Shown here: positions 4,554 to 26,526 of the stretch, piece after piece
How positions within the stretch are numbered: the stretch's first letter is position 1
Layout of the letters: every line of letters begins with the position of its first letter
Assembly (NCBI RefSeq): GCF_014202895.1
Contig: NZ_JACHHV010000017.1
Coordinates: 1 to 37,385 of the forward strand
Direction of reading: 5' to 3'
Length of the DNA stretch: 37,385 nt
Source of the DNA: Lactovum miscens
GTDB taxonomy: Bacteria > Bacillota > Bacilli > Lactobacillales > Streptococcaceae
Translations under genes and position numbers: made by a program
The notes under the pieces: generated by a model
The model's database searches: none
The model's input: the letters and a program-made list of their open reading frames with translations, nothing else
Told to the model about the DNA's origin: nothing

Positions 4554-5543
4554 ATGAGTATGACACTTGACATCTTCGACTATGAAGATATTCAATTGAT
4601 TCCAAACCGTTGCGTGATCCAATCACGTTCTGAAGCGGATACTTCAGTTATACTGGGCAAGCACAGCTTTAAGCTTCCTGTAGTTCCCGCCAACATGCAA
4701 ACTATCATTGATGAAAAAATTGCTGAAATGCTCGCTCGAGAAGGATATTTCTACATCATGCATCGCTTTGAGCCTGAAAAGCGCATAGCTTTTGTTGAAA
4801 GAATGCAAAAAGAAGGTTTGATTTCATCTATTTCAGTTGGCGTAAAAGCTGAAGAACGTAAATTTGTCAAGCAGCTTGCCGAAAAGGCGCTGGTTCCTGA
4901 CTATGTTACAATTGATATTGCGCATGGTCACGCGGACTCCGTCATTGATATGATCCAATTGATCAAACGTGTGATGCCAAGCACTTTTGTCATTGCAGGA
5001 AATGTTGGAACTCCTGAAGCAGTTCGTGATCTTGAACGTGCTGGTGCAGATGCTACAAAAGTAGGAATCGGCCCTGGTAAAGTTTGTATTACGAAGGTAA
5101 AAACTGGATTTGGCACTGGTGGTTGGCAATTGGCCGCTGTTAAATGGTGTGCTAAGGCAGCTAGCAAACCAATTATTGCTGATGGTGGCATCCGGACACA
5201 TGGTGATATAGCCAAGTCTATTCGTATGGGAGCAACTATGGTAATGATTGGAAGCCTCTTCGCTGCCCACGAAGAATCTCCTGGTGAAACCATTGAAATT
5301 GATGGCAAACTATTCAAAGAGTACTTTGGTTCAGCCAGCGAGTATCAAAAAGGTGAGCATAAAAATGTTGAAGGAAAAAAAATACTTCTTCCACATAAAG
5401 GTTCCCTCAAATCTACTTTGAAGGAAATGCAAGAAGACCTTCAATCTGCAATTTCTTACGCAGGTGGTCGTGATATCGAAAGTCTGCGCAAAGTTGACTA
5501 CGTCGTTGTGAAAAATTCAATTTGGAACGGCGACAGCATCTAA
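4554..5543 (+). CDS. guaC: GMP reductase
   Basis: NADPH-dependent deamination of GMP to IMP, letting the cell turn guanine nucleotides back into IMP and then, with the two preceding enzymes, into AMP. An IMPDH/GMPR-type barrel of 329 residues without CBS domains, as expected for the bacterial GuaC type. The catalytic Cys is C178 in the loop [20 protein letters not shown] and IIADGGIR-type phosphate-binding segments are present. It starts 2 bases after the purB stop; a second in-frame ATG two codons later is an equally possible start. It is distinguished from IMP dehydrogenase by length and by KVCITK instead of the IMPDH loop. Confidence 0.93.
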
Positions 5544-5560
5544 AATTTAATATTCTATAA

Positions 5561-5680
5561 CTTATTTATATCCAGGATAGGGCTGGACGTTTCTACCTCG
5601 CGACCATTGTAAAGGCGAGACAATAAGCTACTTTTTGTTTCTTATTTTTAACGTCTGCTTTTTTTGCGGGCGTTTTCTAA
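5561..5680 (+). promoter_or_regulatory. Guanine-class purine riboswitch (aptamer 5561-5627 plus expression platform) controlling xpt-pbuX
   Basis: The aptamer matches the purine riboswitch: P1 CTTATT/AATAAG, P2 CCAG/CTGG with loop GATAGGG, the invariant J2/3 GTTTCTACC, P3 CTCGC/GCGAG, and C at the position equivalent to C74 of the B. subtilis xpt aptamer (5621), which reads out guanine or hypoxanthine rather than adenine. L2 GG and L3 CC are kept for the loop-loop contact, but L3 is about 13 nt instead of 9. The P1 pair next to the pocket is U21-A75 instead of the usual A21-U75. A terminator at 5650-5678 follows. GACGTT of J2/3 (5586-5591) can pair with AACGTC of the terminator 5' arm, a plausible antiterminator, so the switch should be OFF with ligand. 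Confidence 0.93.
5650..5678 (+). terminator. Riboswitch-controlled terminator before xpt
   Basis: AACGTCTGC, seven T as the loop, then GCGGGCGTT and TTTC: a 9-bp stem with two G-T pairs and a U-tract, 80 bases before the xpt start. Confidence 0.88.
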
Positions 5681-6377: not shown

Positions 6378-7643
6378 ATGGAAATTCAAAAACAAGGAAA
6401 TGTAAAATCAGCCGTTCTCGGTTTACAACATCTCCTCGCTATGTACTCAGGCTCAATACTTGTGCCCTTAATGATTGCCGGCGCACTTAAATACAGCGCA
6501 ACACAGTTAACTTATCTTATTGCAACTGACATCTTTATGTGCGGCTTAGCCACCTTCTTACAACTTCAACTGCGGAAGCAATTTGGTGTTGGACTTCCAA
6601 TTGTTCTTGGTGTGGCTTTCCAATCAGTCTCACCTCTAATTTTGATCGGTAGCCGTCATGGCGCTGGTGCCATGTTTGGCGCTCTCATCGCATCTGGTAT
6701 CTTCGTCATCTTAATCTCTGGTGTTTTCTCAAAAATTCGCTCCCTCTTCCCTCCTATCGTGACTGGCTCAGTTATCACAACTATAGGTCTTAGTCTGATT
6801 CCTGTTGCTATCGGTAATATGGGCAACAATGTCCCAAAGCCAACAAGTTCAAGCTTAATTCTTGCTATTTTTACAATTGTCGTTATTCTTTTGATAAACA
6901 TTTTTACAAAAGGTTTCATCCGCTCAATCTCAATATTAATTGGTTTGATAGCTGGAACAATCCTTGCTTCATTTCTTGGTGTTGTTGATTTCAACGCTGT
7001 AGTGACAGCACCTTGGGTTCATTTACCACAACCCTTCTACTTTGCCATGCCAAAATTCTACTTTGAAGACATTCTCATGATGTGTATTATCGCTGTTGTT
7101 TCTCTTGTTGAGTCGACTGGTGTTTACTTAGCCCTAGCTGACATTACAGGTGAAGAACTGGATGAAAAACGGATGCGTAATGGTTACCGCGCTGAAGGTT
7201 TTGCAGTTCTCCTCGGCGGTATCTTTAATACTTTCCCTTATACAGGCTTTTCACAAAACGTGGGACTCGTTCAATTATCTGGAATTAAGAGTCGCAAACC
7301 TCTTTATTTCACTGCCGCCTTCTTGGTTGTCCTAGGATTAATTCCTAAGTTTGCTGCCATGGCACAACTCATTCCAAGCCCAGTGCTTGGAGGAGCCATG
7401 CTTATCATGTTTGGTATGGTCGCTACTCAAGGTATCCGTATGCTAGGAAAGGTAAATTATGACGGAAATCAAAACCTGCTAATTGCTGCTGTCTCAGTTG
7501 CCATGGGTGTTGGCTTTAACTCAACTAATCTCTTCGTTAGCCTTCCAACATTCATACAACCTTTCGTTTCAAACGGAATCGTCATGAGCACTATAAGTGC
7601 AATCATCTTAAACTTAATTTTCAATCATAGCAAAAAGGATTGA
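6378..7643 (+). CDS. pbuX: Xanthine permease (NCS2/NAT family)
   Basis: Proton-coupled uptake of xanthine to feed Xpt. A polytopic membrane protein of 421 residues with the NAT hallmarks: a QH motif near the start (LGLQHLLAMYSG, residues 16-27), an acidic signature helix ending ESTGVYLAL, and YTGFSQNVGLVQLSG. A ribosome site AAAGGAG lies 7 bases before the ATG. Cotranscribed with xpt. Assignment to xanthine rather than uracil or uric acid rests on the xpt linkage and the family motif. Confidence 0.93.
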   Translation: MEIQKQGNVKSAVLGLQHLLAMYSGSILVPLMIAGALKYSATQLTYLIATDIFMCGLATFLQLQLRKQFGVGLPIVLGVAFQSVSPLILIGSRHGAGAMFGALIASGIFVILISGVFSKIRSLFPPIVTGSVITTIGLSLIPVAIGNMGNNVPKPTSSSLILAIFTIVVILLINIFTKGFIRSISILIGLIAGTILASFLGVVDFNAVVTAPWVHLPQPFYFAMPKFYFEDILMMCIIAVVSLVESTGVYLALADITGEELDEKRMRNGYRAEGFAVLLGGIFNTFPYTGFSQNVGLVQLSGIKSRKPLYFTAAFLVVLGLIPKFAAMAQLIPSPVLGGAMLIMFGMVATQGIRMLGKVNYDGNQNLLIAAVSVAMGVGFNSTNLFVSLPTFIQPFVSNGIVMSTISAIILNLIFNHSKKD

Positions 7644-7783
7644 GCTTGACCTTCTACCTTATTTTTAATTCGCTGAGTTACTACCAACAAGCCTTCTTGA
7701 ATATATTTGAAAAATTTTTAAGCTTATTTTATGCTAGCTTTTAGCTTTCGTTAAGCTCAGATTTCTATAATACAAGCATAGAG

Positions 7784-7834
7784 ATGAGGCTACTCCTAAA
7801 GCTTCATCACTTAGTGGTCCTCCTAACCACTTAA
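7784..7834 (+). CDS. Possible 16-residue leader peptide upstream of the MFS exporter
   Basis: The ATG frame encodes MRLLLKLHHLVVLLTT, seven of whose 16 residues are Leu. The stop codon immediately follows the 3' arm of the first hairpin, and a terminator follows 22 bases later. That is the layout of translation-dependent attenuation of drug-efflux or amino-acid genes. Against it: no clear ribosome site, and an independent promoter after the terminator. It is offered as an alternative reading of the same RNA. Confidence 0.25.
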   Translation: MRLLLKLHHLVVLLTT

Positions 7835-7856
7835 AACTTTTTCATAATAACTCCTA

Positions 7857-7899
7857 AAACTAAAGAAGTCTATCATAAGATAGGCCTCTTTAGTTTTTC
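7857..7899 (+). terminator. Strong intrinsic terminator upstream of the MFS exporter
   Basis: Outer arms AACTAAAGA (7858-7866) and TCTTTAGTT (7887-7895), inner arms CTATC and GATAG around an ATAA loop, followed by TTTC. It ends the xpt-pbuX transcript or the candidate RNA. Confidence 0.88.
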
Positions 7900-7915
7900 T
7901 CAAAATTCTTCTTTC

Positions 7916-7924
7916 TGATATAAT
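7916..7924 (+). promoter_or_regulatory. Extended -10 promoter of the MFS exporter
   Basis: TGATATAAT, a perfect extended -10, lies 17 bases before the ATG at 7942. The leader would be only about 11 bases, with AAGAAAG as a weak ribosome site. Confidence 0.65.
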
Positions 7925-7941
7925 TTACTAAGAAAGTAATT

Positions 7942-9240
7942 ATGAAAAATATAGAAAATTTTTCTGAAAAAAAAGAACTAACCTTTGGGCAACAATTCAT
8001 TAGTGTATTTCTACCAACGATGGTCTATGAGATTGGAATTGGGGCAGTAACTCCTGTGATTCCTCTCTTTGCATTAGAATTACATGCTAGTCCGGGTGTT
8101 GCTGCTTTAATTGTTGCATTACTGGGAATCGGTCAGGTAGCAGGTGATGTACCTGCAGGAATACTTGCCACACGTCTGGGTGATCGAAAAGCAATGCTCT
8201 ATGGATCTATAGCCACATTGATTCTGCTTATCCTATGCGCCTTTACACCAAACTGGTGGATTTTTGCGATTGCAACTTTTTTCTTAGGCATGATCAATTC
8301 ACTATTTGTACTAGCAAGGCAGTCTTATCTTACTGAAGTTACTCCTGTTCATCGACGCTCTCTCTCCTTATCAATGCTTGGTGGTATGCAACGCATTGGT
8401 TCCCTCATCGGTCCTTTCCTTGGTGGCCTCATCATGTCTATCTTTGCCATTCAAACCAGCCATGGATCTCAAGATTGGTTACAGGGGGCTTATTGGATTG
8501 CAGCCATTTTGACTTGTGTAACCTTTCTAGTTGTTTTTATGATTCCCGAAATTGAACATTCAACAGGTAAAATCATAGGTGAAAAAAAGTCCGTTAAGCA
8601 AAGTTTTATTCTTAAAAACCATGCAAGAATGTTTGCTACATTGGGCATTGCTATCATTTTAGTAGGGGCGGTTCGCCAGACGTCAAGTACTGCCATTCCA
8701 CTTTGGGCTGCCCACATTGGGCTGAATGCCTCAACTACATCTTATGTCTTTGGCTTAGCTAACCTACTTGATGCCATGCTATTCTATCCAGCTGGAAAGA
8801 TAATGGATCGCTATGGACGTATGTGGGTAGCTGTTCCGTCCATGATTATCTTGGGATCAGCCATCCTCTTTATTCCTTTGACTCACTCAGCTTGGTCAAT
8901 AGCAATCGTTTCTCTCGTCATGGGACTTGGTAATTCAATCGGAGCCGGAATGATTATGACCATTTCTGCTGACATTGCCCCTGTTGAATATCGTCCACAA
9001 TTTCTGGCAACAACTCGTCTTTTCGGAGATGTTGGCGCAGCAGCTGGTCCCTTGATTGTCGCAGCCGGTGCTGCAATTAGTTGGTTAGCTGGTGGTATTT
9101 GGCTCCTTGGTGCATCAGGCATTACTTCAGCGGGTATTATGGCTATTACTCTTGAAAAATTTACACCTCATGCCAATCAACGCACCCGTTTAAAGTATGG
9201 ATTCACAAAAGATGGACGTATTTCTAGAAGACAAAAATAA
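7942..9240 (+). CDS. Major facilitator superfamily transporter, probable drug exporter
   Basis: A 432-residue membrane protein with about 12 hydrophobic segments and a central hydrophilic loop (residues ~205-225). MFS features include GDVPAGILATRLGDRKAM in the loop between segments 2 and 3 (motif A-like G-x-x-x-D-R-x-x) and GRMWV after the sixth/seventh segment pair with DRYGR. The GPFLGG motif in segment 5 is of the motif C type found in antiporters (exporters). The C-terminal tail is basic. It converges on a multidrug ABC exporter and shares a terminator with it. The substrate cannot be named. Confidence 0.85.
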   Translation: MKNIENFSEKKELTFGQQFISVFLPTMVYEIGIGAVTPVIPLFALELHASPGVAALIVALLGIGQVAGDVPAGILATRLGDRKAMLYGSIATLILLILCAFTPNWWIFAIATFFLGMINSLFVLARQSYLTEVTPVHRRSLSLSMLGGMQRIGSLIGPFLGGLIMSIFAIQTSHGSQDWLQGAYWIAAILTCVTFLVVFMIPEIEHSTGKIIGEKKSVKQSFILKNHARMFATLGIAIILVGAVRQTSSTAIPLWAAHIGLNASTTSYVFGLANLLDAMLFYPAGKIMDRYGRMWVAVPSMIILGSAILFIPLTHSAWSIAIVSLVMGLGNSIGAGMIMTISADIAPVEYRPQFLATTRLFGDVGAAAGPLIVAAGAAISWLAGGIWLLGASGITSAGIMAITLEKFTPHANQRTRLKYGFTKDGRISRRQK

Positions 9241-9241
9241 T

Positions 9242-9284
9242 ATTAGATTAAAAAAAACTCAACTTGAGTTTTTTTTAATCTAAT
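9242..9284. terminator. Bidirectional terminator shared by the MFS and ABC exporters
   Basis: A perfect 19-bp inverted repeat, ATTAGATTAAAAAAAACTC with its complement at 9266-9284, around a 5-base loop. A-runs and T-runs on both sides serve both strands. The 3' arm contains the stop codon of the minus-strand ABC gene (9280-9282). Confidence 0.95.
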
Positions 9285-11094
9285 GTGCAAATTGTGAATT
9301 ATAAAGATCAGCATACATTCCTCCTGAATTCAGTAAGGAATGATGGGTCCCTATTTCAACAATATTTCCGTGATTCATTACCAGAATTTGATCTGCATCA
9401 CGAATTGTTGAAAGACGGTGCGCCACCACAAAACTTGTTCGTCCATGCAATAAGCGAGCCATAGCATCTTGGATCATACGTTCAGTTCGGGTATCGACAG
9501 AGGAAGTTGCCTCATCAAGAATAAGAATTTCTGGATTCACGAGGAAAGCACGGGCAATTGTCAAGAGTTGACGCTGCCCTTGAGATATGTTGCTTGCTCC
9601 TTCATTCAAAGTTGTGTCATAGCCTTTAGGTAAAGTTTTAATAAATTCATCAGCATGAGCCATCTTAGCTGCCTTATAAATTTCCTCATCAGTAGCTTCT
9701 AAATTACCATAACGTAGATTATCACGAACCGTACCTGAGAAAAGCCAAGTTTCTTGAAGTACCATAGCGAAATTACTGCGAAGTTCCTCTTGACTCAGTG
9801 CCTTAGTATCTTGTCCGTACAGACGAATTGTCCCTCCCGTAGTTTCATAGAAGCGCTCAAGTAAGTTAATCAGAGTTGTTTTACCAGCACCAGTTGGCCC
9901 CACAATGGCAACCATTTGTCCTACAGCAACATCAATCGAGACGTCAGTCATCAAAGGTTGATTTTCACTATAGGAGAAAGCTACATCTTCAAAACGGATA
10001 ATGCTGTCCGTTTTGATAGCAGTTTTGGCATTAGGTTTTTGCATCTCTGACTCATCAAGAACTGCAAAAACTCGTTCAGCAGAGGCTACAGTTGCTTGAA
10101 TCGTATTGATCAAGTTTGACATGTTAGTAATAGGTTGGCTAAATTGATTCGTGTATTGAAGCATGGCCTGAACATCACCAATATTTACTTGACCACTAAC
10201 GACACGAATCCCCCCAATTACTGCCATTGCTAAATAATCAAAGTTATTCAGAAAACGCATGGTGGGGAAAATCAAAGTTGAAACAAACTGGGCTTTCCAG
10301 GCGGCATTAAAAAATGCTACATTTCTCTTATTAAAATCTTCCAAAGACGTTTTCTGGTGGTTAAAGGTTTTGATTACTGTGTGTGCCGTATAGTTTTCCT
10401 CAATTTGGTTATTCAACAATCCTAAATTACGTTGTTGAGTTGAGAAAAATCTTTGCGACATTGGGGCAATTACACGGACTAAAATTAATGCCAAAGGAAC
10501 GGTAATAAAAGCAACCAAAGCCAGTACCCAACTAATTGTCAACATGAAATAGCAAACACCAATAAATTGTAACGCTGAGGTAACCACCTGAATCAGCGTT
10601 TGATTTAATGTAGATGAAATATTATCCATATCATTAATCATACGAGACATCACGTCACCATTTGAATGAGTATCATAATAACTAATAGGGAGCTTTGCCA
10701 TTTTATTCTTGAATTGCTTGCGCAGACGATAGACTGTGCGTTGAGAAATCCGAGTCATAATTTGTTGTTGCAGTATACCAAAAACAAAGCTAACTGAATA
10801 AATTATTCCAACTGTGATTAAGATTGAACCAACCCTGCTGTAATCAATCCCAGTTTTTGAAGTAACACCCGCGGCTATAACTGTTGTTGCATTACCAAGA
10901 ATTTTTGGTGCCTGAACAGAAAGAATAACGGAAACAGCTGCAATAAACAAACTGAAAATAACTCCCCACTTATCACGATTCATATAAGAGAAAAGACGTG
11001 TTATCGTTGGCCAGAACTTAACTGGTTTCTGTCCACCATTACCAAAACGAGCGGCGGCGCCTCCCCCACGATTTAAATAATTTCCACGCATCAT
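9280..11094 (-). CDS. Heterodimeric multidrug ABC exporter, subunit with the canonical ATP site residues
   Basis: A half-transporter of 604 residues with a membrane domain (~35-330) followed by a nucleotide-binding domain. Walker A GPTGAGKT at 399-406, signature ISQGQ at 503-507, Walker B LILDE with catalytic E528, and H-loop H559. The preceding gene overlaps by 4 bases (ATGA) and encodes the partner with degenerate catalytic residues, so the pair forms an EfrAB/LmrCD-type heterodimer in the cytoplasmic membrane. The start may be either of two adjacent ATGs; AAGGTGAT lies upstream inside the partner gene. The N-terminal Gly/Asn-rich tail (1-25) is typical of this subunit. Confidence 0.92.
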   Translation of the reverse strand: MMRGNYLNRGGGAAARFGNGGQKPVKFWPTITRLFSYMNRDKWGVIFSLFIAAVSVILSVQAPKILGNATTVIAAGVTSKTGIDYSRVGSILITVGIIYSVSFVFGILQQQIMTRISQRTVYRLRKQFKNKMAKLPISYYDTHSNGDVMSRMINDMDNISSTLNQTLIQVVTSALQFIGVCYFMLTISWVLALVAFITVPLALILVRVIAPMSQRFFSTQQRNLGLLNNQIEENYTAHTVIKTFNHQKTSLEDFNKRNVAFFNAAWKAQFVSTLIFPTMRFLNNFDYLAMAVIGGIRVVSGQVNIGDVQAMLQYTNQFSQPITNMSNLINTIQATVASAERVFAVLDESEMQKPNAKTAIKTDSIIRFEDVAFSYSENQPLMTDVSIDVAVGQMVAIVGPTGAGKTTLINLLERFYETTGGTIRLYGQDTKALSQEELRSNFAMVLQETWLFSGTVRDNLRYGNLEATDEEIYKAAKMAHADEFIKTLPKGYDTTLNEGASNISQGQRQLLTIARAFLVNPEILILDEATSSVDTRTERMIQDAMARLLHGRTSFVVAHRLSTIRDADQILVMNHGNIVEIGTHHSLLNSGGMYADLYNSQFAH

Positions 11095-12866
11095 GAGCGA
11101 TCACCTTCCGTCACTTCTTCTATTTTCAGAGAAATCCCCATACTTTCTAGATCCTTTTCAGACAATTGAGAACGCATAATATCTTGATATGCTGAGCAAT
11201 TTTTTGCAAGGCTTGCATGATCTCCCAGGCCAACCACCTCTCCTTTATCAAGCACAAGGATCTGGTCAGCATTCATAACTGTCGCAATACGTTGAGCCAC
11301 AATAATTTTTATTTTGTCTTGAAATTGAGGGCTGGAATTAATTGCAGTCCTCAATTTTGTATCTGTTGCAAAATCAAGGGCGGAAAATGAATCATCAAAG
11401 CAATAATAATCAGCATCTTTAATCAATGTTCGGGCAATAGCTAGTCTTTGCCTTTGTCCCCCAGAGAAGTTACCTCCATTTTGCTCAACAGTCATTTCAA
11501 GTCCACCCTGTTCCTTAACGAAATCTGTTGCCTGAGCAATGTCTAGTGCTGTCCAAATCATAGCGTCTGTCGCTTCGGGTCGGCCATAAAGCATATTACT
11601 CTTGACTGTTCCCGAGAACAGAACCGCTTTTTGTTGAGTCAGAGAAATCTTTTCGTGCAAGTTATATTGGCTCAAAGAACGAATATCTCGGCCAGCAATT
11701 AAAATTTCTCCTGAGGTAACATCCATCAACCGGGCAATCAGACTTAATAGAGTTGATTTACCTGAACCAGTACCACCAATAATAGCCAAGGTCTGACCTT
11801 TTGTAACAGTAAAATTAATCCTAGATAGGGCAGGACGCTCAGCGTTGCTGAAAGCGTAGCTAACATCAATAAACTTCATCTCAATCGGAGCTGACAAACT
11901 TTCTGAATTCTCAGGGTCAACGATTTTTTCTTCAGTATTCAAAATTTCATTGGCACGCACTGCTGAAACCTGGGCACGTGGCACCATAACCATGACTGCA
12001 GTGAGCTGCATAAAACTTAAAAGAATCTGAGTGGCATAGGTTAAGAAGGCAACCAAATTTCCCAGTCCCATTAATCCTTTTCCGATCAATTGAGCTCCAA
12101 ACCAAACAATTGCAAGATTAGTCGCAGAAAGAATCACGGTCATAATCGGGCCGAGCATGGCGACAGTAGCCATTACAAATTGGCTGATTTTTGTAAGGTC
12201 CTTATTAGCCCTATCAAACTTTTCGATTTCATAATTATCTCGATTAAAAGCACGAATGACCCGCACACCTGTTAACCCCTGCTGGAAGATGAGATTAATT
12301 TTATCAATCTTTTCTTGCATGAGACGAAAACGAGGCATCACCATGGCAATATTAACTACTGCAACGATTGCAAGCAAAGGTAAAGCCACGATGAAGACCC
12401 ATATTAGATTGTGGTCTAAATTCCAAGCCATAAAAATAGAACCAATCAGCATTAGGGGCGACATCAACATCATACGAAGAGCCGTCTGATATACATTTTG
12501 AAGCTGGGTAACATCATTAGTCGTACGTGTGATTAAAGTCGCATCACCAAAGTCAGAGAACGCAGATTCATCCATTTTAATTACCTTTTCAAAAAGGTCT
12601 GAACGAAGCCTCATACCAAGACGTTGTGATTGAATTGAAGCATAGTAGACATTTAAGACAGCTGCTAGCCATGAGACTAAAGCCACAATTAACATCGTTC
12701 CGCCTTGAGCCCAGATATAATTCAAGTCTGACTTAGCGATCCCCTTATTAATAATATCTGAGGTGAGATTGGGTAATAATAAATTAGTTACCACCTGGAC
12801 AATTAAAAAGAAAATTGCCAAGAAGACTGGTAAGGGTTGAAGATATTTTTTTCCAATTATAATCAT
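11091..12866 (-). CDS. Heterodimeric multidrug ABC exporter, subunit with a degenerate ATP site
   Basis: First gene of the two-gene exporter operon, 591 residues. The membrane domain spans ~1-310. Nucleotide-binding domain: Walker A GGTGSGKST at 364-372, signature FSGGQ at 467-471, Walker B CFDD with Asp (D492) where the catalytic Glu normally stands, and Gln (Q525) instead of the H-loop His. This asymmetry is the known hallmark of heterodimeric exporters with one non-hydrolysing site, not a defect. I cannot decide from sequence between the LmrC and EfrA lineages. No local regulator gene accompanies the operon. Confidence 0.92.
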   Translation of the reverse strand: MIIIGKKYLQPLPVFLAIFFLIVQVVTNLLLPNLTSDIINKGIAKSDLNYIWAQGGTMLIVALVSWLAAVLNVYYASIQSQRLGMRLRSDLFEKVIKMDESAFSDFGDATLITRTTNDVTQLQNVYQTALRMMLMSPLMLIGSIFMAWNLDHNLIWVFIVALPLLAIVAVVNIAMVMPRFRLMQEKIDKINLIFQQGLTGVRVIRAFNRDNYEIEKFDRANKDLTKISQFVMATVAMLGPIMTVILSATNLAIVWFGAQLIGKGLMGLGNLVAFLTYATQILLSFMQLTAVMVMVPRAQVSAVRANEILNTEEKIVDPENSESLSAPIEMKFIDVSYAFSNAERPALSRINFTVTKGQTLAIIGGTGSGKSTLLSLIARLMDVTSGEILIAGRDIRSLSQYNLHEKISLTQQKAVLFSGTVKSNMLYGRPEATDAMIWTALDIAQATDFVKEQGGLEMTVEQNGGNFSGGQRQRLAIARTLIKDADYYCFDDSFSALDFATDTKLRTAINSSPQFQDKIKIIVAQRIATVMNADQILVLDKGEVVGLGDHASLAKNCSAYQDIMRSQLSEKDLESMGISLKIEEVTEGDRS

Positions 12867-13662
12867 TGATTAATTCTACTACTTTTCTTTCTCAGAAATA
12901 TAGTGTAAATAGTTATTATTAAATATTTCCACATTTTTACTTAGTAATTAAACACTTTTGAAAATCCGTAAATAATATTTTCTGAAAAAATGATATACTA
13001 CCTTCATACTCCTTACAAGTGTTACCGACTTGTTCATAAACACTCCTCAAAAAGTTGTCTTTTTAAGACGATTTTTTTATCTCACAAAAATTTTCAGATT
13101 TTTGTTATTCCAAAACAACTTTCGTATCAAATATCAAGTTACAGTTCCCCCTAAGAAAAACAATTATTTAAATTTCACTTTTAATATTGACATAACATTT
13201 TGAAAAATCAATATGTATGATTGCTTAATGCTATGTCATCTCAGAGTTTGTTACTCTTCTAAGAAATTCCTCAAAAAATGCGTCTGATAAAATACTCCTA
13301 TAATGGATATTCACCATAACAAAAAATACGCATTCCTTTCCAATCTCTCACAAGGCTTTTAACCAGTGCATCCCTATCGAAAGCTTACTTAGTAATATTA
13401 ACAAAATAACTTTTCTTAATTTTTTTCTCATAATTATTTGTTGCAAAAATATCATTTTTATTAATAAGTGACTTCCTTTTTTAAGTATAATAGTTATTTT
13501 CTTCGTGATAAACTCAATAATTGAACTTTCTCCATACCTATTGAATTAAAAGCCGTCAAGTTTAAAACTTTACAAGCCATTTCTTTGATTTTAGTTGAAA
13601 ATTTCGGTAAATTAAAATAGGTTAACTTTTTAACGTTCTAATATATTTTTTAAGGAGAAGAT
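12867..13662. other. 796-bp intergenic region between the ABC exporter and trhO
   Basis: Divergent, AT-rich, with no credible protein gene. Contents: a candidate small RNA (13006-13079). An AT hairpin ACAAAAAT/ATTTTTGT (13084-13105). A hairpin TGACATA...TATGTCA (13189-13238). A short stem AGAGT/ACTCT (13243-13257). The inverted pair ATGCGT...ACGCAT spanning about 13278-13338. A TATAAT (13486-13491) that could start the trhO message. Its length and amount of structure are unusual for this compact genome. Confidence 0.6.
13006..13079 (+). ncRNA. Candidate small RNA with two anti-Shine-Dalgarno motifs
   Basis: The extended -10 TGATATACT (12991-12999) would start an RNA near 13006. It contains ACTCCT (13008-13013), the hairpin ACAAGT/ACTTGT around a 7-base loop (13015-13033), a second ACTCCT (13042-13047) in a single-stranded linker, and a 13-bp terminator stem (13049-13061 with 13065-13077, two G-T pairs) ending in T7. 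No open frame with a ribosome site lies inside. ACTCCT is complementary to AGGAGT-type ribosome sites. It faces away from the ABC exporter and ends about 580 bases before trhO, so it looks free-standing. Confidence 0.55.
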
Positions 13663-22164: not shown

Positions 22165-23142
22165 TTATTTAATGAAGGTCGCTGCATGAGAGCGAGCGTT
22201 GGCAGCTTTTAATTCTTCCAAAGTCAAAATTTCATTATCAAGCAACAATTGGTACTCTTTTGGCAGAGTCGTATTTTGCAAGATTGGACCATCTGTATTA
22301 ATTGTAAAAGGTACGCCATGCTCTACCAAAGTCCGATAGTTGAACTTCATCTCTTCAAGATCTTTTACAGCCAATGTCTGCAAGTTTGAAGATGGGCAGG
22401 TTTCTAGAATAATGTTGTGATCAACCAAGAACTTCATGAGGTCTTCGTCATGTACCGCTGCCACACCATGTCCAATACGATCAGGACGAAGTTTTTGAAC
22501 AACTTCCCACATTTCGTCAGCCTTAGTCGCTTCACCCGTATGTATAGTTAAGCCAAGCCCTTCAGCATGAATACGATTTGCTAAACCAGTTATGTCATCA
22601 ATTGAGAAGTTTGGGTCTATTGGTCCAGCTAAATCAATCCCAACAACGCCACGATCTTTATATTTAATGGCTTTTTTTACTATGATTGTATTAATTTCCT
22701 TACTAAAGCGACGATCCATTGAGAGAATCAAGCCAGTCCGAAGCTTTGGAAACTTAAGGGAAGCGCGTTCCAACCCTTGCAAAGTGTAGACTATAATGTG
22801 ATCGAGGTCGATTTTCCCACCACGTGAACGAAGCATCGGATTCATACGAATTTCGACCAAATCAATTTGATCATGTTGGTAAAGGTGTGTCGGTACGGAC
22901 TCCGCTAAGTGAAACATTGACTCTGGTGTTGATTGGATTTCTTCAAGCATATCATACATCTTTAAATAGTCTTCATAACCCACTTGTCCATTAATCGTAA
23001 CTAGTTTCGAAAATTCAAAGTAATCACGGGCAGGTAACTTCATTCCTTGCTCATGTGCCAAGTCCCAAAGTATCTCCGGTGTAACTGATGATGAGATGTG
23101 CATGTGAAGCTCAGCAAGATCTGATATAGGGAATTTGTCCAA
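22165..23142 (-). CDS. add: Adenosine deaminase
   Basis: Hydrolyses adenosine (possibly adenine) to inosine (hypoxanthine), feeding IMP via salvage. 325 residues of the metal-dependent amidohydrolase type. Zinc ligands H13 and H15 in LAELHMH, H201 in HTGEA with catalytic E204, GHGVA (H225), and D284 in NTDGP; ETCPSSN is also diagnostic. The start is TTG (23140-23142), because AGAGGT stands 5-6 bases upstream and no ATG precedes the first motif. It is controlled by a guanine-class riboswitch. Adenine deaminase of the same family is the main alternative. Confidence 0.9.
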   Translation of the reverse strand: MDKFPISDLAELHMHISSSVTPEILWDLAHEQGMKLPARDYFEFSKLVTINGQVGYEDYLKMYDMLEEIQSTPESMFHLAESVPTHLYQHDQIDLVEIRMNPMLRSRGGKIDLDHIIVYTLQGLERASLKFPKLRTGLILSMDRRFSKEINTIIVKKAIKYKDRGVVGIDLAGPIDPNFSIDDITGLANRIHAEGLGLTIHTGEATKADEMWEVVQKLRPDRIGHGVAAVHDEDLMKFLVDHNIILETCPSSNLQTLAVKDLEEMKFNYRTLVEHGVPFTINTDGPILQNTTLPKEYQLLLDNEILTLEELKAANARSHAATFIK

Positions 23143-23172: not shown

Positions 23173-23298
23173 AAAAAATCCCGTCAAATTTAGCAGGCGT
23201 TGCTTACAAAATAAAAGGTCAGTAAAAAGCACCTTTATTGTCCCACATTACTTTGGTGTGAGGTAGAAACGCCCTGCCATATCCAGGGTATAAATAAA
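23173..23298 (-). promoter_or_regulatory. Guanine-class purine riboswitch controlling add (aptamer 23298-23234, terminator 23201-23173)
   Basis: Read on the minus strand: P1 TTTATT/AATAAA, P2 CCCTG/CAGGG with the consensus-like loop GATATGG, J2/3 GTTTCTACC, P3 CTCACA/TGTGGG, then GAC with C at the position of C74, so guanine rather than adenine class. The P1 pair next to the pocket is U21-A75, as at xpt. Downstream, AACGCCTG can pair with CGGG before six T (weak terminator). GGGCGTT of J2/3 (23274-23268) can pair with AACGCCT (23201-23195) as antiterminator. P1's 3' strand can also form AATAAAGGT/ACCTTTTATT further down. Confidence 0.92.
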
Positions 23299-23306
23299 TT
23301 GGACTC

Positions 23307-23335
23307 ATCTTAACATGTTTTTGTGAGCGGGTCAA
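23307..23335 (-). promoter_or_regulatory. Promoter of the add riboswitch transcript
   Basis: On the minus strand TTGACC, a 17-base spacer ending TGT, then TAAGAT (also an extended -10). Transcription would start at the base of the aptamer's P1. Confidence 0.82.
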
Positions 23336-26112: not shown

Positions 26113-26526
26113 TTATACGCTTTCTATATCTTTCAGACGTTGTACACGTTGCTTTATGTCATCGCGTACCCGGCGAAATTCTTCCATAATTTCTTCTTTA
26201 GTCCCTATCGCCCTAGCTGGATCTGGTAAATCCCAATGTTGTTGAGCATGCCCTAATGGAATCATTGGGCATTTATCACGTGCATCTCCACATAAAGTTA
26301 CAATTAAATCTGCCGCGTTAAAATAGTCAAGATCAATTAGAGTTGATTTATATTTTGATATATCAAGCCCATCTTCAGCCATCACTTGTACTGCTTTAGA
26401 ATTCAATCCATGGGTTTCAACTCCAGCAGAACGAACCTCCCAGCCTTCCAAAAATTCATGACCATAGCCTTCAGCCATTTGGCTGCGGCATGAGTTCCCT
26501 GTACATAAAAAGTATATTTTTTTCAT
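26113..26526 (-). CDS. arsC: Thioredoxin-dependent arsenate reductase (LMW phosphatase type)
   Basis: Reduces arsenate to arsenite by a cysteine relay. 137 residues with the P-loop CTGNSCRS (C8, C13) and the redox cysteines C79 and C86 in TLCGDARDKCP, matching the C10/C15/C82/C89 set of the S. aureus pI258 enzyme. AGGAG lies 8 bases upstream. No arsR, arsB or acr3 gene is nearby, so arsenite export, if any, is encoded elsewhere. Confidence 0.92.
   Translation of the reverse strand: MKKIYFLCTGNSCRSQMAEGYGHEFLEGWEVRSAGVETHGLNSKAVQVMAEDGLDISKYKSTLIDLDYFNAADLIVTLCGDARDKCPMIPLGHAQQHWDLPDPARAIGTKEEIMEEFRRVRDDIKQRVQRLKDIESV

Follow-up and report, generated by a model that had tools for sequence, protein, structure and literature searches.

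A predicted csRNA and a csRNA-like small RNA beside exporter genes in Lactovum miscens, a member of the Streptococcaceae outside the genus Streptococcus

The Cia-dependent small RNAs (csRNAs) of Streptococcus are built from stem-loops, an unpaired sequence complementary to Shine-Dalgarno sequences and start codons, the conserved nonamer [A/C]UCCUAAA[A/C] and a terminator (PMC3091779). Their promoters carry the consensus NTTAAG-N5-TTTAAG, with the -10 box ten bases further on (PMC3091779), and under the spacing rule [TTTAAG]-N5-[TTTAAG]-N22-[TSS] the transcript starts 22 bases past the repeat (PMC6560143). In S. pneumoniae, a translation block through covering of the start region has been reported for comC (PMC8186281, PMC11478796). 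Marx et al. (2010) described CiaRH as present in all streptococci and apparently absent from other bacteria, naming Lactococcus for CiaH (PMC3091779), and a 2021 inventory held csRNAs from Streptococcus species only (PMC8186281). In the open-licence literature we found no title or abstract reporting csRNAs in Lactococcus, although earlier reports may exist, and csRNAs and CiaR go unmentioned in the main text of a 2026 study of lactococcal small RNAs.

Here we analyzed a stretch of 37,385 nucleotides of L. miscens DNA (the window), which holds two RNA elements next to exporter genes (Table 1). In our assessment the element at 7778-7899 is very probably a csRNA and that at 13006-13079 a csRNA-like sister type whose promoter has no CiaR site; read in this way, the first RNA extends a known kind to a new host, whereas the second is a variant. 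The initial annotation had held that no described family has such a layout, but the layout is that of the Streptococcus csRNAs (PMC3091779), and the first RNA has the CiaR promoter too. Like the csRNAs and Ccn RNAs of Streptococcus (RF02379; PMC3091779, PMC8186281, PMC11478796), it combines a CiaR-type promoter, stem-loops and an anti-Shine-Dalgarno/anti-AUG linker, and it further resembles the csRNAs in its CUCCUAAA nonamer, its terminator, a length within the reported range and the occurrence of several copies per genome. Unlike them, it belongs to a host outside the genus, contains two hairpins, the first with a ACUCCUAA loop, and scores below the Rfam cut-off; the 13006 type differs from them in the missing CiaR site. 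RsaE and LhrC-type small RNAs likewise aim exposed C-rich motifs at ribosome sites, whereas here the motif is joined to an anti-AUG sequence and a CiaR promoter, and across 7600-13200 neither RsaE nor LhrC was matched by its Rfam covariance model at E values up to 10.

Table 1. Coordinates of the two RNA elements, their parts and the flanking genes in the window
Feature	Position	Strand	Basis
CiaR direct repeat TTTTAG-CTTTC-GTTAAG (predicted)	7739..7755	+	exact csRNA register, 10 nt 5' of -10 box
-10 box TATAAT	7766..7771	+	expected RNA start 7778, N22 past repeat, C preceding
csRNA-type small RNA gene	7778..7899	+	fold z -6.4; RF02379 31.2 bits; model R2 E 1.5e-8
Hairpin 1, 9 bp, loop ACUCCUAA at 7792-7799	7783..7808	+	fold
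Hairpin 2, 6 bp, loop CCUCCUA	7813..7831	+	fold
Unpaired anti-translation-start linker, UUUUUCAU 7838-7845 and ACUCCUAAAA 7850-7859	7832..7859	+	fold, pairing test
Intrinsic terminator of first RNA	7856..7897	+	fold
MFS efflux-type transporter gene	7942..9240	+	NCBIfam MFS efflux model matches, all below curated cut-offs
Pair of genes for ABC exporters, 9280-11094 and 11091-12866	9280..12866	-	NCBIfam ABC exporter models, below named-subtype curated cut-offs
-10 box TATACT, no CiaR repeat upstream	12994..12999	+	-10 conserved in three G003 copies
csRNA-like small RNA gene, divergent from ABC exporter operon	13006..13079	+	fold z -3.9; three tandem orthologues in G003
5' ACUCCU motif	13008..13013	+	intact in 2 of 3 G003 copies, AUUCCU in the other
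Hairpin ACAAGU/ACUUGU of second RNA	13015..13033	+	fold, G003 comparison
Unpaired anti-start linker UCAUAAACACUCCU, CAU 13035-13037 and ACUCCU 13042-13047	13034..13047	+	fold; conserved in G003
Intrinsic terminator of second RNA	13049..13077	+	fold

When the regions were folded and compared with shuffled sequences, 7778-7900 reached -39.0 kcal/mol and 13005-13079 reached -15.1 kcal/mol, and in each case none of 200 shuffles was as good. The first RNA is intergenic, with stem-loops and an intrinsic terminator, and a comparison of relatives showed the loop of its hairpin 1 to be preserved at loci L086 and L094 despite a differing stem sequence. In its module UUUUUCAU-AAUA-ACUCCU (7838-7855) the complement of a start codon comes first and that of a Shine-Dalgarno sequence second, and both CAU (7843-7845) and ACUCCU (7850-7855) are unpaired in the fold. 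Reverse-complemented, UUUUUCAU-n4-ACUCCU reads AGGAG-TTATT-ATGAAAAA, that is, AGGAG-n5-ATGAAAAA, which combines an ideal ribosome site with a start. The nonamer [A/C]UCCUAAA[A/C] is present as CUCCUAAAA at 7851-7859, and the final four bases of ACUCCUAAAA double as the foot of the terminator stem, so that the unpaired part of the linker is 7832-7855. Two intergenic RNAs of a common plan, each preceded by a TATAAT-like -10 box, had already been proposed at these places, and they are borne out by folds that beat all shuffles and by conservation in relatives at the same loci. The layout proposed for the first RNA needed correction: its elements exist, but the first ACTCCTAA (7792-7799) forms the loop of the 9-bp hairpin rather than preceding a hairpin, and the CCTCCT described as a loop is present as CCTCCTA in the second hairpin, the unpaired copy being ACTCCTAAAA at 7850-7859. 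The relatives were also searched for loss of motif and hairpins, which had been named as grounds for rejecting the proposal, and motif and hairpins are conserved.

The sequence TTTTAG-CTTTC-GTTAAG-N10-TATAAT spans 7739-7771 and follows NTTAAG-N5-TTTAAG in register: compared with the consensus, both G positions are kept, A is changed to T once in the first half and the first T of the second half is G. The pattern NTTWAG-N5-NTTAAG-N10-TANNNT matched once in the window and in none of 100 simulated windows. CiaR sites were scored by the full register including the -10 box only; the repeat alone with one or two mismatches was discarded as unspecific, the reversed control pattern matching more often genome-wide. 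The same genome encodes a CiaR homologue, an OmpR-type regulator (C7:44853-45518) with an adjoining histidine kinase gene and the recognition helix VVEVYMSKIRKKL, to be set beside the published streptococcal helix VVEVYVSK[VI]RKKL (PMC3091779), and CiaR is present in 243 of 245 genomes of the family, in eight of nine genus groups. From the computed site and the presence of the regulator we infer that the first RNA is transcribed under the response regulator CiaR. That both elements are ordinary terminators which carry pyrimidine-rich stretches by chance is close to negligible as an explanation: the genome is AT-rich and the ACTCCT motif short, but the fold z-scores, the conservation of synteny and motif, and the CiaR register all speak against it.

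The complementarity of the linkers to translation starts was examined with the genes of the window. The first linker paired with 30 start regions at a mean of -9.4 kcal/mol, compared with -6.5 kcal/mol for internal coding sequence (p 2e-6), and one of 200 shuffled RNAs matched its preference for start regions. For the linker of the second RNA the preference was weak (p 0.09), and hairpin loop 1 showed none in the same test. The most likely mode of action is translational repression. The unpaired anti-AUG and anti-Shine-Dalgarno sequence would be exposed to mRNAs in trans, and the RNA would cover translation initiation regions and so block translation of the mRNA. An exposed motif able to cover ribosome sites had been part of the initial annotation, and this part stands; the motif is not ACTCCT alone, however, the upstream anti-start-codon CAT (7843-7845, 13035-13037) having been overlooked. 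A motif search gave candidate targets, which are leads only. Among them are an accC-like gene at C8:20853 and a gene (C7:6106-6124, minus strand; L158) that encodes a small, serine-rich membrane protein and has a start region complementary to the C2b RNA along 19 bases; the start regions of the window genes at 26526 and 191 are candidates too.

In the second RNA, which is expected to start near 13006, the module reads UUCAU-AAAC-ACUCCU (13033-13047). It would be made under another signal, from a promoter without a CiaR site. Because the register pattern search of the window gave no CiaR repeat match upstream of 13006-13079, we call this element csRNA-like only: it has the same design and another promoter, and csRNA membership is not claimed for it. 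In the relative G003 the second RNA is present at the same locus as three tandem copies, which diverge from the ABC exporter. Every copy shows TATACT, a 5' motif resembling CAUAyUCCU, a hairpin (partly decayed in the third) and, ahead of a terminator of its own, UUGUUCAUAAAUACUCCU; the RNA is absent from the exporter locus in two other relatives carrying that exporter. The proposal that the two RNAs are members of one family is half correct: they share a plan, but model R2 (see below) finds the first alone and the second lacks the CiaR site, so that they are not simple copies of each other. An unrelated family of small RNAs that converged on the anti-start design, with only the first RNA being a csRNA, would account for the missing CiaR site, for the absence of the UCCUAAA nonamer and for the failure of R2 to recover the 13006 RNA. 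We consider such convergence unlikely but far from negligible, as the order of parts is identical and a UUCAUAA-n-ACUCCU linker stands before the terminator as in csRNAs. Common descent of the 13006 type with csRNAs is unproven, the linker being short.

At the first locus, the Rfam family that matches best, RF02379 (csRNA), does not reach the gathering cut-off of 57 bits. This is a curation cut-off and not a biological feature, and csRNA-type loci of relatives that do have CiaR sites fall short of it too; unrelated control genomes also give weak RF02379 matches at E up to 10, so that the match would be poor proof by itself. A model of our own, R1, built from five copies, found five places in the genome of the window: both loci of the window itself, a tandem pair on C2 and a single copy on C44. 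At E up to 0.01 it gave hits in 23 of 245 genomes of the family and in six of nine genus groups, likely a lower bound given the strict filters, a few of the weakest hits lacking the core. The CiaR register, which was not in the search model, occurs at most core-bearing loci, including those of groups g2, g4 (the largest, presumably Streptococcus), g8 and g9; examples from relatives are L086, L091-L094, L097, L103, L106, L107 and L119. A Streptococcaceae metagenome-assembled genome (L004) has a csRNA with TTTCAG-ATTGC-TTTAAG-N10-TATAAT about 290 bases upstream of an MFS gene orthologous and 79% identical to that of the window. Judged by such predictions, csRNA-type genes, most of them with CiaR sites, appear to occur in several further genus-level groups of the family.

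A second model, R2, was built without the window loci, and from sequence only because RNAalifold found no consensus pairs in a mixed alignment, in which the hairpin sequences differ among copies and were misaligned. R2 recovers the first RNA (Table 1); since its training rows were first found with R1, which held the window loci, we count this as support and not as a fully independent test. The fifth csRNA-type gene of the genome (L078, G000 C44:3057-3157, minus strand) has TTTAAG-TTTCA-TTTAAA upstream, with the -10 spacing one base short. At L098 (group g7), two tandem csRNA-like genes at 1536 and 1911 carry TTTTTCATTAACTCCTAA and an unusual upstream sequence, in which the CiaR repeat was not found. 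A plasmid search for close copies returned two matches of 27-30 bases only, which we attribute to chance, and a pattern scan of viral contigs gave 46 hits. These were examined for opposite-strand reading frames only, which about half of them start, as expected for a start-site complement; no clear csRNA was seen among them, and they were left out of the analysis.

The position of the elements beside exporter genes raises the question of whether they are cis-acting leaders or attenuators of these genes. Between the end of the first terminator and the MFS start codon lie 44 bases, and L004 has a csRNA-type gene 5' of the same MFS gene. There, however, the gap is about 290 bases, and in the window the MFS gene has a promoter-like site of its own at 7897-7924, past the terminator; moreover, further copies (C2, C44 and relatives) sit at other loci, and the second RNA is oriented away from the ABC genes. 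We therefore regard a role as cis-acting leaders as very improbable and retain the reading as a csRNA and a csRNA-like RNA acting in trans. Elsewhere in the window, the MFS and ABC genes converge on a hairpin of 20 pairs with T runs (9242-9284), likely a bidirectional terminator, and two purine riboswitches (Rfam RF00167, both above the cut-off) lie 5' of xpt/pbuX-like genes (5542-5643, plus strand) and 5' of an adenosine-deaminase-like gene at 22165-23142 (23218-23317, minus strand).

Outside the window, the genome has two csRNA-type genes about 1.3 kb apart (L003; G000 C2:37525-37613 and C2:38884-38979). In place of a CiaR site, these copies have in common an upstream inverted repeat, GACTTAGGTC. 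Their counterparts in relatives (L087 and L090) carry TCAGTCTAAAGTTTGA and TCAGTCTAAAGTCTTA, both of which differ by a single mismatch from TCAGHCTnnAGDCTGA, the lactococcal CesR motif (PMC4447274). A CesR-like box also stands upstream of an ftsH-like gene in the genome of the window, and a putative CesR motif has been described for ftsH of Lactococcus lactis (PMC3139573). CesR/LiaR-like control of this third subtype, for which the relatives and one or two expected genes speak, is only a lead, because genome-wide matches to the box were barely above the control (46 compared with 37) and the C2 boxes of the genome itself depart from the CesR motif.

As far as can be predicted, the finding is one of a known mechanism with a wider host range and partly rewired promoters. 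It is possible, and we suggest it tentatively, that csRNAs are ancestral to the whole Streptococcaceae and that in the lineage studied here the anti-start module stands under at least three promoter types, namely CiaR, CesR/LiaR-like and a further type at the exporter locus. If true, different stress sensors would feed a single pool of translation-blocking RNAs. Apart from this suggestion, the predicted CiaR and csRNA-type genes in other genus-level groups open the system to study in species beyond the pathogenic streptococci, include members that differ in promoter control, and may account for uncharacterized small RNAs observed in such bacteria.
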